DNA of 64,000 nt from Thermoflavimicrobium daqui (GTDB taxonomy: Bacteria > Bacillota > Bacilli > Thermoactinomycetales > Thermoactinomycetaceae): assembly GCF_003313465.1 (NCBI RefSeq), contig NZ_KZ845666.1, positions 310,001-374,000 on the forward strand, read 5' to 3'. Within the stretch, counting starts at the first letter, position 1; the number at the start of each line of letters is the position of its first letter. Below, one piece after another: positions 1,956-36,177 of the stretch. The notes beneath the pieces are model-generated. The model did no database searches. It saw only the letters and a list, made by a program, of their open reading frames with translations, and was not told the DNA's origin. Position numbers and translations under genes: made by a program.

Positions 1956-1987
1956 TAATAGCCCTAATATTAACTCTCATAATGGCA

Positions 1988-2024
1988 CAAAAAATAGCAG
2001 GCTTGTTTTACCTGCTATTTTTAC
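1988..2024 (-). terminator. Rho-independent terminator
   Basis: AAATAGCAGG (1992-2001) pairs with CCTGCTATTT (2011-2020), with A and T runs on either side. It ends the polysaccharide block transcribed from 6309 towards 2038. Confidence 0.85.
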
Positions 2025-2037
2025 TCATCGCATCGTT

Positions 2038-3321
2038 TTATTTCTTATCATCATTTGTTTGTGCAGTTTGATCTGTTGAAACAGCTGTTTTCTTACTAGT
2101 AACAGCTTCAACACACTTTTTTAATAAGCCAAAGAAGCGGTGTGCTAACTTTTGACGATCCCCTTCCCGGTCTATATATTCTCGACCGTTTTTCGCTATT
2201 TGTTCTAGTAATTTAGGAGTATAGTTTCGTATCCGTTCAATGGCTTTAGCTAGTCCTTCAGGATCTTCTGCTCCACTATAAATACCAACACCATTTTTTT
2301 CAACGATTTCTCGTACTTCTCCATCAACAGTGGTAATAATCGGTTTCCCAACAAAAGTGTAGTCGAACAATTTATTTGGTCTAGCTCCCTTAAAGATGTC
2401 ATTATTTGCTAATGAAATAATTCCGCAATCAGCAGCATACGTATAATCAAAAATCTCCGCTTTAGGGACGGGATCTAAAAAGTGGATATTTTCGATTCCT
2501 TCTTCTTGCTTGATACGGATTAATTTTTCCTTCTCAGGACCATCACCAATCAGAACAATGTGTGTTCCATCCGGCAAAAACTTCCCTGCCCTTACGACAT
2601 ACTCAAGGGCATTCGCGGGACCGTGTGCTCCTGTATAAATCGCTACAAAGTCATCAACAGGAATACCCATTTTCCTCTTAAATTCCGCTCTCTTGTTCAC
2701 ATTCGGCTTCCAAGATCCTACGACAATGCCATTTGGTATTAACTCGATTTTATCTCGATCAATACCTTTATCCGCAATAAAATTGCGTTGATGCTCTGTT
2801 AGAACGACAATCTGATCTGCTTTTCTATATAATAAGGATTCCATCCATGTCAAAAGGTTAACGATCATCCGATTATTTAAGCCACCCATTTTAATAAGGG
2901 AATCCGGCCATAAGTCTCGTACCTCAAATACAAAAGGACAACTTTTTAGCTTTGCTAATAACCATCCGGCAAAAGCCGTAAACAAATGGGGAGATGAAGC
3001 TACAATAATATCTGGTTTTTTCTCAAATAAACCTCGTAAAAAAAAGACGAGTGCAAAGCTTCCCATATTAAAAATACGGCGAAAATCATTTTGTTTATGT
3101 GGGAAAGACCAAAGCCACTTGAGGTTTAAACGATCCACTTTTTCCAATTCTGCTTTTTCTTCTTGTGATATAAATGTTCGACGTGGATGTATAAAACTAG
3201 ACATCCACAAAGTCACATCAGCATTATTTTCTTCTGCCCACACTTTTGCTAGCTCATAATGACGAGTAATCCCAGCAATATTCGGTGGAACAGCATAATG
3301 ATTTACTAACCATATTCGCAA
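2038..3321 (-). CDS. Glycosyltransferase family 4 (WbuB-like)
   Basis: This 427-residue protein has the two-Rossmann GT-B fold of family GT4. The N-terminal acceptor half starts RIWLVNHYAVPPNIAG. The C-terminal donor half has the nucleotide-sugar region ending GARPNKLFDYTFVGKPI, with IPNGI before it. This resembles WbuB-type transferases that add a sugar (often an N-acetylated one) to a lipid-linked oligosaccharide on the cytoplasmic face. The likely start is TTG at 3321 after AGGAAGTG; no better ATG is near. The C-terminal 25 residues are polar and low in complexity. It lies downstream of a Wzy-like gene and a UDP-GlcNAc 2-epimerase gene, so it probably acts on the same polysaccharide. Confidence 0.85.
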   Translation of the reverse strand: MRIWLVNHYAVPPNIAGITRHYELAKVWAEENNADVTLWMSSFIHPRRTFISQEEKAELEKVDRLNLKWLWSFPHKQNDFRRIFNMGSFALVFFLRGLFEKKPDIIVASSPHLFTAFAGWLLAKLKSCPFVFEVRDLWPDSLIKMGGLNNRMIVNLLTWMESLLYRKADQIVVLTEHQRNFIADKGIDRDKIELIPNGIVVGSWKPNVNKRAEFKRKMGIPVDDFVAIYTGAHGPANALEYVVRAGKFLPDGTHIVLIGDGPEKEKLIRIKQEEGIENIHFLDPVPKAEIFDYTYAADCGIISLANNDIFKGARPNKLFDYTFVGKPIITTVDGEVREIVEKNGVGIYSGAEDPEGLAKAIERIRNYTPKLLEQIAKNGREYIDREGDRQKLAHRFFGLLKKCVEAVTSKKTAVSTDQTAQTNDDKK

Positions 3322-3382
3322 TCTCTTTCACTTCCTTCATTAGAGATCCACAATTCTGATGAATAAAAATAAAGGAATAACC

Positions 3383-3418
3383 TTAGCTGTTAGCCTTTTG
3401 AATACGGCTAACAGCTAA
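3383..3418 (-). terminator. Hairpin after the Wzy-like gene
   Basis: TTAGCTGTTAGCC (3383-3395) pairs perfectly with GGCTAACAGCTAA (3406-3418). The T run that follows on the minus strand is interrupted, so it may terminate weakly or protect the 3' end of the message. Confidence 0.5.
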
Positions 3419-3492
3419 AATGCACCTTTTCAACATACAAAAAGATGATAGTTAGGCTGCTTTTTCATTTTTCTCTAGCTTCTATAGAGAAT

Positions 3493-4869
3493 TTATGCAG
3501 TTTGTCCTTCTGTTCTTTGCTTCTCTCCAATTGCTACAACTGCTAATGCAATGCCAATTACAGACCACATAGGAGTAAAGTGAATACACGAACTTGGAGC
3601 AATCCCTCCAAAAGAAAAGCCAATGAGTGCTAATAAACTAGACAAGGCACTCCATCGAACGAATGAAGAAACATGAGGTGCTTTTTTGATTCGCGAGAGA
3701 TTCCAAAGTTTAACCAGGAGCCATAAATATACAGACATATAAAGAACAAAAACAATGACCCCAAAATTCACCAATACCTCTGCCCACCAGTTATGGATAT
3801 TTACTTTATTAACTCCTTTTTTTCCTTTCATATGTGCTTCTACATTTCCCGCACCTACACCAAGGAAATGACTCTTTTGTAAGAAGTCTAAACCATAAAG
3901 GAGTAGATATTTCCTAACAGTAATACTTTGGCCTCCGGTTCCCTCACCCTTTTCCACCTCATCAAGCTCATGGATATTCATGGTGCCACCTTTGAGATCT
4001 TTAAAAATACCAAAGGTGCTTGCTAACTTATCTCGACCATTTTGCGCAAGTAAAACTTGACTAAGCAAACTAACCAATAATACAACCGATAAGATAACTG
4101 CTATTCCTTTAAATATATACTTTTTAGTTAGTTTTTCTTTCTGAACAGTGAAAGGTAATGCTAATAACCAGATAATAAGAATGAGAGGAAGTGCAAAGAA
4201 GGTATTGCTACGTGATCCTGTGGCTAACAAGCAATATAGAGCAATAACAATTAAGATATAAAGGCAAATCTTCATTTTACGCGACAATTTCAAAGCATAC
4301 ATTGCCGTTGCTAAAAATGGGAAAGCCAATGTTATATAAGTTGCAAAGTCGTTTTGATTTCTAAAAAAAGAAGTAACTGATGCACTATCACTCATATAAT
4401 AGCGTGACGAAGGTAAATGAAAATAAGTGATCGACTCAAAGAAACCAAATAACACCATTATACAGAAAACCGCAAAACCTACAACGAAAGTTCGCCTAAG
4501 CTGTTTTTGACTATGTGCAAAGTATGGAAAAGCTATACAAAATGGGATCATCATAGCTAAAAAGAAGAGATAGCGAATCCCAAATTTTAAATTAATTACC
4601 CAAATAAGTGAAATTGCAGCATAAAGCAGCCAAAACGCAAAAAAAGCGATAGGCCAACGAATTGGCTTTAGATGAGAAGCCTCTAATTGCTTCGTCGAAA
4701 TAAAGCGAACGATCAAAGCGATAAGTAAAACAAAAAATGCAATTCGAAAAAACATTAAATTAAAGTTTGGCAATAGTTTCACACCAAAAGTAGGGCCTAA
4801 TAAAGCGAAGGCCATCATGACATAAAATAGTATTTCAAGACGCGACCTGCTAAATAATTTTTCTATCAC
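3493..4869 (-). CDS. O-antigen ligase/polymerase-like membrane protein (Wzy family), paralogue 1
   Basis: This is a 458-residue polytopic protein with about ten to twelve hydrophobic segments and a large extracytoplasmic loop (around residues 285-345) ending HFLGVGAGNVE. The pattern FLGVGAGN..NIHNWWAEVL is typical of Wzy_C/O-antigen-ligase proteins, which polymerise or transfer undecaprenyl-linked glycans outside the membrane. It is clearly paralogous to the protein at 41085-42491: both begin with AFALLGPT, share LPSS, NQND and ATGSR, and end with a P(M)W(S/V)V.GIALAV segment. The start is GTG at 4869 with GGGG upstream. It sits between the epimerase and the GT4 genes. Confidence 0.8.
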   Translation of the reverse strand: MIEKLFSRSRLEILFYVMMAFALLGPTFGVKLLPNFNLMFFRIAFFVLLIALIVRFISTKQLEASHLKPIRWPIAFFAFWLLYAAISLIWVINLKFGIRYLFFLAMMIPFCIAFPYFAHSQKQLRRTFVVGFAVFCIMVLFGFFESITYFHLPSSRYYMSDSASVTSFFRNQNDFATYITLAFPFLATAMYALKLSRKMKICLYILIVIALYCLLATGSRSNTFFALPLILIIWLLALPFTVQKEKLTKKYIFKGIAVILSVVLLVSLLSQVLLAQNGRDKLASTFGIFKDLKGGTMNIHELDEVEKGEGTGGQSITVRKYLLLYGLDFLQKSHFLGVGAGNVEAHMKGKKGVNKVNIHNWWAEVLVNFGVIVFVLYMSVYLWLLVKLWNLSRIKKAPHVSSFVRWSALSSLLALIGFSFGGIAPSSCIHFTPMWSVIGIALAVVAIGEKQRTEGQTA

Positions 4870-5247
4870 CTTACCCCATCCTTAAAAATACAAAGTTCTA
4901 ATCAACAAAACTAGTTGCTTTCCTTTATCATTGACCTGCAATTAACCCGTTTAGTCTTAAACATAAAGTTGAAGTAAAATCCTTTCCGAAGTACCTAAAA
5001 AGTAATCATAAGTTTTCTTTTATCATATTAACCTATCCTATGCAACCTAAGTACTGGTATTTTCCACAAAAATACACATCCATTATAACAATCTTTGAAC
5101 ATTTAAACATAGATAACCGAAATGGGTCTCTCTTACCAATTAAAGTTATTGAAACAACTTCAAGAGAGACCCATTCTTTGGTAAATCTTTCTTGCTATTG
5201 TTCTTGATTAGCTTCTGATTAATGATAGGCAACGATAAACTCGTATG
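4870..5247. other. Gap between epimerase and Wzy-like gene
   Basis: There is no coding signal. It is AT-rich and contains the long hairpin at 5121-5175. The next gene downstream may start its own transcript within 4870-5110, but no convincing promoter was picked out. Confidence 0.4.
5121..5175. terminator. Long perfect inverted repeat after wecB-like gene
   Basis: AATGGGTCTCTCTT (5121-5134) pairs with AAGAGAGACCCATT (5162-5175), a 14-bp stem with a 27-base loop that contains a second AAGTT/AACTT pairing. It lies 73 bases past the epimerase stop. A terminator is the simplest reading, although the T run after the stem is poor on the minus strand. Confidence 0.5.
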
Positions 5248-6309
5248 TTATTCACCCATCAACTGACTCACAATTTTTTCTGCTGCTTTTCCATCACCAA
5301 AAACAGGTGGAATTTGTGCAAAGTCAACAGTAAAATGACTAACCGCATGCAATATTTCCTTATGACTTGCACCAACTAATCTATTTGTACCTAGTTCAAC
5401 CGTTTCTGTCCACTCCGTCTCATCACGCATGGTAATACATGGGACTTGTGCAAAGAAAGCTTCTTTTTGTACACCACCAGAGTCAGTTAAAATTTTCTTA
5501 GCGTTAACTTCTAATTGAAGCATATCCAAATAGCCCACTGGTTCTATCACCATAACATTTGGATTAGCAATCTCTAGCTGGTACTGTTCTAGTTTTCCAT
5601 AGGTACGTGGGTGAAGAGGTAAGACGGCTTGATCCTCTAGTTGATTTATAGCTTGTACAATCTCTTTAAGTCGCTTAGGATCATCTGTGTTTTCAGCACG
5701 ATGTAGTGTAATTAAAAGAAAAGAGCTAGGTTCTAAATTCAGTCGGCTAAGAATTTTCGACTCTTGCTCAGCTAACTTACGATTATAATTAACTGCATCT
5801 AACATAACATCTCCGCTCAAATGGACGCCTGCTGTAATTCCTTCGTTTTGAAGATGATGTACTGCTGTTTCTGTCGGGCAAAATAACCATTTTGAAACAT
5901 GATCTGTAAGTACTCGATTAATCTCTTCTGGCATACGGCGGTTAAAGCTTCTTAATCCTGCTTCTACATGAGCCACAGGAATATGTAACTTGGCTGCAGC
6001 TAATGCACCTGCTAAAGTGGAATTCGTATCCCCATAAACTAATAAACAATCCGGCTTTTCTTTAAGTAAAACTTCTTCAACCTTAGCCAACATAGCTCCT
6101 GTTTGTTCTCCATGCGATTTGGAGCCAACATGTAAGTGATAGTCAGGTCTTGGAATATTTAATTCTTCAAAAAAGACATCTGACATCACCTTATCATAAT
6201 GTTGCCCTGTGTGAACCAAAATCTCTTGGCCTACTTTTCTCAATACACGAGATACTGGTGCTGCCTTAATAAATTGTGGTCTAGCCCCAACTACTGTCAC
6301 AACTTTCAT
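5248..6309 (-). CDS. wecB: Non-hydrolysing UDP-GlcNAc 2-epimerase
   Basis: This 353-residue enzyme would interconvert UDP-GlcNAc and UDP-ManNAc (or the matching 2,3-diacetamido uronic acid forms, as WbpI does). Family signatures are all present: VGARPQFIKAAPV at the N terminus, HTGQHYD near 35, VYGDTNSTLAGA near 90, HVEAGLRSFNRRMPEE near 115, and DSGGVQKEAFF near 277. The fold is GT-B-like, as in the GT family relatives. The ATG at 6309 follows GGGG. It heads a three-gene block with a Wzy-like protein and a GT4 enzyme. Sequence alone does not decide between WecB/MnaA and WbpI substrate use; the diacetamido-uronic pathway at 44-48.6 kb makes the latter worth considering. Confidence 0.85.
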   Translation of the reverse strand: MKVVTVVGARPQFIKAAPVSRVLRKVGQEILVHTGQHYDKVMSDVFFEELNIPRPDYHLHVGSKSHGEQTGAMLAKVEEVLLKEKPDCLLVYGDTNSTLAGALAAAKLHIPVAHVEAGLRSFNRRMPEEINRVLTDHVSKWLFCPTETAVHHLQNEGITAGVHLSGDVMLDAVNYNRKLAEQESKILSRLNLEPSSFLLITLHRAENTDDPKRLKEIVQAINQLEDQAVLPLHPRTYGKLEQYQLEIANPNVMVIEPVGYLDMLQLEVNAKKILTDSGGVQKEAFFAQVPCITMRDETEWTETVELGTNRLVGASHKEILHAVSHFTVDFAQIPPVFGDGKAAEKIVSQLMGE

Positions 6310-13711: not shown

Positions 13712-13987
13712 TTATGTATTGACTGCTTCTTTAAGCTGCTTACCAGGCTTAAATGATGGAACTTTACTGGCCTCAATATGTATTTTTTCTCCAGTTTGAG
13801 GATTTCGACCAGATCTTGCCGCTCGTTCACGCACTTCAAAATTCCCAAAGCCAATCAACGTTACCTTTTCTCCATTTTTTAATGCATCAGCAATGGATTG
13901 AAAAACAGTATCCACTACCAGTGCTGCTTCTTTTTTAGTTTTCCCAGTACTTTCAGCAACTTTCTCTATTAAATCCGTTTTATTCAT
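13712..13987 (-). CDS. hup: HU-family nucleoid DNA-binding protein
   Basis: This 91-residue histone-like protein bends and compacts DNA as a dimer. It begins [20 protein letters not shown] and has the signature [20 protein letters not shown] for the flexible beta arms, with the conserved proline in RNPQTGE. Length and sequence match Bacillus HBsu. The ATG is at 13987, but the only good ribosome site, AGGAGGTG, ends 36 bases upstream, with a hairpin in between (see separate entry). It is monocistronic, between its terminator and the competence gene comFC. Confidence 0.97.
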
Positions 13988-13994
13988 TCAATTC

Positions 13995-14031
13995 TTCTGC
14001 TACAAAACATGGTAGCAGAAATGCACCTCCT
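13995..14031 (-). promoter_or_regulatory. Hairpin between ribosome binding site and start codon of HU mRNA
   Basis: AGGAGGTG sits at 14031-14024 and the ATG at 13987-13985, far too far apart for normal initiation. Between them, TTCTGCTAC (14020-14012 on the minus strand) pairs perfectly with GTAGCAGAA (14003-13995), a 9-bp stem with an 8-base loop. Removing this hairpin from the count leaves about 10 bases between ribosome site and start, which is a workable spacing. Confidence 0.75.
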
Positions 14032-14106
14032 ATTTAGACTAGTTTGTTAATTTAAAGTCTTGACTACTTTTTCTCTATCTATACATTTGTTTAGATAGAA
14101 ATGACT

Positions 14107-36003: not shown

Positions 36004-36177
36004 TAAAAAATCCCTTTGCTAAGAGAGCAAAGGGATTACCATAATTTATGATAACACCTTCTCTCATCTCTCAGAACACTTTTTGTTCCGCAGGAATTGG
36101 CACCTTTTCCATCAATCATGGACGGTTGCCGAGGTATCATTGGGCCTGTCCCTACACCTCTCTCGATAAGAGAACGG
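36004..36177 (-). promoter_or_regulatory. SAM-I (S-box) riboswitch with terminator, upstream of metNIQ
   Basis: On the minus strand the aptamer runs from TTCTCTTATCGAGAGAGGTG (about 36175) through GGGACAGGCCC and CTCGGCAACC to GATGAGAGAA (36068-36059), which closes helix P1. All the conserved S-box core elements are present. The expression platform ends with a strong terminator, AATCCCTTTGCT (36037-36026) with AGCAAAGGGATT (36020-36009) and a T run, just before metN. High SAM should stop transcription of the methionine importer. Confidence 0.95.

Follow-up and report, generated by a model that had tools for sequence, protein, structure and literature searches.

We analysed a 64,000-nt stretch of the Thermoflavimicrobium daqui genome (the window), and found that the HU gene hup is preceded by a strong Shine-Dalgarno sequence (SD) that lies far from the start codon, with a perfect hairpin between the two. 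The hup leader is probably a split (accommodated) ribosome binding site, with the hairpin as a minimal relic of IS607/RAGATH-18 (TnpB) elements. The same SD-hairpin-start arrangement stands before dozens of unrelated Thermoactinomycetaceae genes.

The hup leader in the window and in relatives

The hup coding sequence (91 aa) occupies 13712-13987 on the minus strand, as given by the open reading frame listing and a match to Pfam PF00216 (Bac_DNA_binding, E 1.9e-38). Its ATG (13985-13987) is the MNK start common to relatives. Reading 5' to 3' on the minus strand, we found the SD AGGAGGTG (14024-14031), the 5' stem arm TTCTGCTAC (14012-14020), the loop CATGTTTT (14004-14011), the 3' arm GTAGCAGAA (13995-14003) and then the ATG. 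The SD is separated from the ATG by a 36-nt spacer (13988-14023), and a near SD is absent. The arms form nine Watson-Crick pairs with no mismatch, and a tenth pair, U.G between 14021 and 13994, is possible. When the 26-nt hairpin is folded out, 3 nt after the SD and the 7 nt between stem and ATG (13988-13994) remain, which makes 10 nt. These positions and this complementarity, described in the first-pass annotation, were confirmed in the sequence.

Further upstream, a TATAGA-containing stretch (14073-14083, minus strand) was picked by eye as a candidate hup -10 element. Similar TATAGA sequences lie upstream of hup in several relatives, and the stretch was not among the output of the promoter consensus scan. 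A hairpin-forming stretch (TTCTATCTA...TAGATAGAG, 14070-14100) overlaps this candidate region. The Rfam scan at hup found no known RNA family and no RAGATH-18, and tnpB is also absent there. Elsewhere in the window, a SAM riboswitch (RF00162, 97.6 bits) lies at 36061-36172 on the minus strand.

Chance is an unlikely source of the hup stem. Only 2 of 5000 dinucleotide shuffles of the hup spacer reached a 9-bp stem, and 4 of 1000 folded as well as the spacer itself (MFE -12.3 kcal/mol). The stability of a wider 81-nt stretch was unexceptional (z -0.93; 36/200 shuffles as good), so the evidence consists of the length and place of the stem; a 171-nt stretch gave z -2.25. We scanned 464 kb of the window's genome (the window and 20 stretches) for candidates with a distant SD, a hairpin and a start. 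Among 605 ORF-like frames, hup had the longest stem, with 10 pairs counting G.U. The runner-up had 9 pairs, but its frame has a near SD too, and stems of 7-8 pairs were found at three further frames without a near SD.

HU leaders were compared in 33 of 41 genomes, the window's own (G000) included. The bridging hairpin was found in four: G000, two genomes of the same genus (G001 and G002, the latter Thermoflavimicrobium dichotomicum DSM 44778) and G007 (Seinonella peptonophila DSM 44666; both strains recognised from identical sequences). By eye, the hairpin is absent from the other 29 leaders, which have an SD-like sequence near the start instead, and among 80 named HU loci the bridge occurs in Seinonella only. 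The distant SD AGGAGGTG is kept in G000, G002 and G007, and G001 has GGGAGGTG. GGAGGTG lies 36, 39, 88 and 54 nt from the ATG in G000, G002, G001 and G007, respectively; with the hairpin folded out, the distance from GGAGG is about 10-14 nt in all four.

The loops of the relatives are entirely different in length and sequence, with the stem kept. In Seinonella the arms read CTATTAC/GTAATAG, against CTGCTAC/GTAGCAG in the others, which amounts to two compensatory pair changes; its SD is nearly fully paired in the model. The longest Watson-Crick stem of G001 is 6 bp, a length frequent by chance (1364/5000 shuffles), and its fold energy is unusual (15/1000 shuffles as good). The interpretation in the first-pass annotation was thus partly supported: the stem recurs at hup in four genomes, with two compensatory changes in Seinonella; the covariation score, in which three sequences counted, was equalled by 46 of 500 shuffles.

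In G001, both HU genes are interrupted near codon 48/49 by inserts (L031 2089-2928 and L032 about 1970-6134) that start with GTGCGCCCG, end with CCCTAC and contain Rfam Intron_gpII matches. Group II introns are thus present in both paralogues, which are housekeeping genes, at one shared position.

A dispersed family and its long members

A covariance model built from three hup leaders also matched before other genes, for example an Asp23-like gene (G000, G002) and pyrG (G002). Across a 398-genome sample of the class, only G000, G002 and G007 gave hits with E up to 0.01, and this first model scored the G001 hup leader poorly (E 0.059). Gene names other than HU and TnpB (dnaN, pyrG, Asp23-like, aminotransferase-like) were assigned by eye from N-terminal sequences and are presumptive. 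The pattern GGAGGTG-gap-CTRYTAC occurred 12 times in G000 against once in the reversed control, with 11 vs 2 in G007, 7 vs 3 in G002 and 5 vs 0 in G001; in many other genomes of the order it was not above the control. In G000, 10 of the 12 hits, hup included, are followed by a 3' arm that matches, with a start codon after it.

We found the right-end pattern ATGTTTN{1,4}GTARCAG, which holds no SD, at 107 places in 23 family genomes (control 27). Inspection of 100 places (7 were left out) placed a gene start at most 15 nt downstream in 53; 20 are 5' arms in reverse beside an anti-SD, and 27 belong to neither class. For 43 of the 53 right ends that precede a gene start, an SD-adjacent partner beat all 20 shuffles.

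Leaders with a strong partner within 420 nt (cut -17 kcal/mol) formed a set of 37. Here AGGAG (or GAGGG, GGGGG) lies 75-371 nt from the start (median 207), and 3-18 nt when folded out (median 13), which is longer than the 8 nt between AGGAG and ATG in ordinary genes (n=114). The right end stands a median of 7 nt before the start, the same as the gap at hup. In the full modelled leader, the arms pair in 32/37 and are unpaired in 5/37, and the SD is mostly unpaired in only 19/37. The arm pair counts (C-G 24, U.G 8, U-A 5, C-A none; n=37) are biased, since the cut selects for pairing, and are not used as proof.

Two loci of the family were noticed in passing. L155 of Seinonella (about 1500-1610) holds a complete SD-hairpin-ATG unit, after which only 12 codons are read before a stop; the gene there is short or decayed. 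At L215, a Guanidine-I riboswitch-like match (406-515; 56.6 bits, under the gathering score of 63) precedes, at short distance, an element and an aminotransferase-like gene.

The long members of the family carry transposon features. RAGATH-18 scored above the gathering score in seven of the eight tested and below it in the eighth, and several long members also contain an IS607-type tnpB. One TnpB, from T. dichotomicum (n=1), has the expected Pfam domains and matches 8IAZ (ISFba1 TnpB) at E 1.5e-118; its element has a broken tnpA. With RAGATH-18 near the right end and a TnpB of the ISFba1 kind, the long members appear from their sequences to be IS607/RAGATH-18 TnpB elements. IS607 elements are described as having imperfect repeats near their ends and no terminal inverted repeats (PMC6188088). 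Because RAGATH-18 and tnpB are absent at hup, we term the hup hairpin a relic and not a member.

AGGAG stands immediately 5' of the left end in at least eight members by eye. This is also the published target-adjacent motif (TAM) of IS607/RAGATH-18 TnpBs, reported as AGGAG for 18 of 22 strains and as GAGGG for 4 (PMC11061315), and it is present within AGGAGGTG at hup (14027-14031, minus strand). AGGAG is the Shine-Dalgarno core; the words "ribosome" and "Shine" do not occur in the main text of PMC11061315, and none of the matches listed for the open-licence literature linked TnpB or IS607 to Shine-Dalgarno sequences or ribosome binding.

At least eight members of 200-240 nt (L236, L242, L248, L256, L258, L268, L270 and L272, read by eye) share one anatomy. 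AGGAG comes first and is followed by a left end that spans about 80 nt, then by an SD that belongs to the element, by CTGCTAC or a sequence close to it, by RAGATH-18 (tested in L242, L256 and L270) and by a right end finishing in GTAGCAG; the start codon comes after a further 6-10 nt in most. Other members, hup among them, have a single SD with the arm immediately after it. For 10 copies that carry tnpB, the right end has its best partner next to an SD within tnpB itself, 587-615 nt before the end; this partner beats all 20 shuffles in 6/10. At L290, L293, L297 and L298, for example, an SD-like GAGGTG and then CTGCTAC, complementary to the element's right end, are found within tnpB about 600 nt before that end. 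We therefore rejected the assumption that the SD ahead of a hairpin always comes from the host: many 200-240-nt members carry an SD about 80 nt inside the left end, and the SD-like site and arm within tnpB contradict it as well. Putative "left ends" in other Bacilli were likewise discarded, being largely tnpB-internal sites. One further entry, L354, was set aside for faulty coordinates.

An empty site was found at dnaN. In G022, the dnaN leader carries an element whose right end is followed by GATATC-ATG, and the AGGAG beside its left end reads AGGAAG. Two genomes of the same genus, with a 95% identical dnaN protein, have the empty site: G020 reads contiguous GAGGAG-GGTATT-ATG, and G013 contiguous GAGGGGATAAT-ATG. 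The element right end is absent from the other 22 dnaN leaders. Both dnaN and hup are essential in Bacillus subtilis, which means that translation must tolerate insertions of this kind.

RAGATH-18 was found in 40/398 genomes of the class sample and in 17/398 of a phylum sample, the window's genome included. A gene start lies 30-85 nt downstream on the same strand in 43 of 57 RAGATH-18 loci examined across the phylum, compared with 336 of 4560 random positions (7%), and is absent from that place in the remaining 14. For loci outside the window's family the count is 39/50. For 34 of these 43 loci the start follows the right-end motif by 5-15 nt; in nine it lies before or farther from the motif, or the motif was not recognised. 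A tnpB-internal SD and arm at the expected distance were found in 12 of 19 loci of other families, an interval that shuffled right ends also chose in 246/863 cases. The site beats all 50 shuffles in only four of the 19, two of which are L349 (same order) and L350 (family-type ends). With 43/57 starts in place and only 4/19 arms above shuffles, the sequences indicate that the insertion place is general, and that support for the paired arms is good within Thermoactinomycetaceae and weak outside it.

Origin of the hup hairpin and rival explanations

We propose that the elements insert between the Shine-Dalgarno sequence of a gene and its start codon, oriented as the gene, at a TAM that equals the SD core. 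In the mRNA, the host SD and the paired ends of the element would then give SD-hairpin-start, and the host gene would stay translatable. Alternatively, the same order may come from an SD carried by the element, together with an arm that pairs with the right end. At hup, the interior of the element would have been lost by decay, and the stem retained because hup translation came to depend on it. The 30S subunit would pair with AGGAGGTG while the hairpin remains folded out, so the effective SD-AUG distance would be about 10 nt.

We infer folding in the cell, ribosome use of the distant SD and the hairpin's descent from an element. The descent is suggested by the arms, the SD, the place and the company of the hairpin: the 5' arm includes CTGCTAC, the arm sequence of the dispersed family, and the 3' arm includes GTAGCAG, with which the family right end terminates. 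Since arms persist in decayed copies and a compensatory change occurred at hup, the sequences point to selection on the RNA.

The best-surviving rival, to which we allow a small but real chance, is that the hup split site arose independently by point changes or a small insertion and merely resembles the family. RAGATH-18 and tnpB are indeed absent at hup, the Seinonella stem differs in sequence, and T4 gene 25 is such a site arising in a lineage without transposons (PMC3014915). Against this, the same arm sequence at the same SD-arm distance precedes many other genes of the same genome, and the hup loop and 3' arm together (ATGTTTTGTAGCAG; G000:C4:323997-324010:-) match the family right-end pattern.

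A regulatory switch, with the hairpin opened or closed by a protein, a ligand or temperature so as to regulate HU, is improbable. In its favour, the stem is kept though the loops differ; against it, the loops are wholly different in length and sequence, the modelled stem stays folded up to 65 C, and the same device precedes unrelated genes. Membership in a dispersed, transposon-derived family argues that the hairpin is by origin no HU-specific regulator. The temperature control of HU suggested in the first-pass annotation found no support, as in the model the window stem keeps a pairing of 0.97-1.00 from 25 to 65 C (0.97 at 65 C). An RNA thermometer at hup was accordingly rejected, with no melting in the model up to 65 C.

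It is equally doubtful that the elements are cut out of the mRNA by intron-like removal or processing, joining the distant SD to the start without folding. The long members are structured and sited in important genes, and IS607/IS605 relatives with introns (IStrons) are known. However, Rfam found no intron in the eight long members tested, giving RAGATH-18 instead, and the 26-nt hup hairpin and other short members are too small for self-splicing introns. It is very improbable that the loop ATG opens a short upstream frame (M-F-C-S-R-R-I-E, read off the window by eye) and couples it translationally to hup through a stop that overlaps the start of hup, because this ATG is missing in the closest relative, G002, and lies inside the stem-loop in the window.

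Beyond hup, we lean towards a wider reading, with less assurance than for hup itself: RAGATH-18/IS607 TnpB transposons may be specialised settlers of ribosome binding sites that bring a portable split site, and their decayed copies may become permanent host sites, as at hup. The portable site would consist of an SD and a hairpin, with the right end of the transposon itself forming the 3' foot of the hairpin. It would rebuild the translation start of the interrupted gene, an RNA-level alternative to splicing, and would let the elements live in essential genes.

Relation to known systems

Known examples of split ribosome sites include a few phage genes and thrS. The hup leader would be one serving a core chromosomal gene, with dozens of others likewise, and it would have a concrete origin. 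This origin would also account for the Shine-Dalgarno-like TAM of this large TnpB family, as such a TAM sets the element down at gene starts, together with the guide from its right flank. The many natural variants, with loops of 6 to over 200 nt, offer a test range for 30S accommodation of folded RNA between SD and AUG. Genes with split sites would also tend to escape start-site prediction.

A parallel with Bacillus hbs, raised in the earlier annotation, was not supported. The Bacillus hbs leader has a strong SD, as does hup in the window, and both are HU genes. However, in the Bacillus-group HU loci compared (which include B. halotolerans, B. glycinifermentans and B. paralicheniformis, and not B. 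subtilis), the SD lies immediately 5' of the ATG without a bridge. An hbs-type leader was rejected for hup, which has no SD directly upstream of its start.

In T4 genes 38 and 25, structure between SD and AUG shortens the distance from 22 to 5 nt and from 27 to 11 nt, and these sites are lineage-restricted and work without a factor (PMC3014915). As at hup, the intervening structure brings SD and AUG to a working distance, and by analogy the hup site may work in the same way. Unlike the T4 genes, hup is a chromosomal HU gene known here from sequence; copies of its leader arrangement are dispersed upstream of many genes, and its hairpin appears to originate from a transposon. In E. coli thrS, the ribosome accommodates a folded leader domain with no unfolding, in a model of standby modules (PMC3936740); the proposal for hup likewise has a folded leader domain accommodated, and differs in origin and layout.

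The ISFba1-type IS607 TnpB elements (PMC11061315) resemble the long members in having RAGATH-18, a tnpB near 8IAZ and AGGAG by the left end, features that, AGGAG apart, distinguish them from the hup hairpin. Described here in addition are the place of insertion, between Shine-Dalgarno sequence and start codon, and the pairing of the arms.
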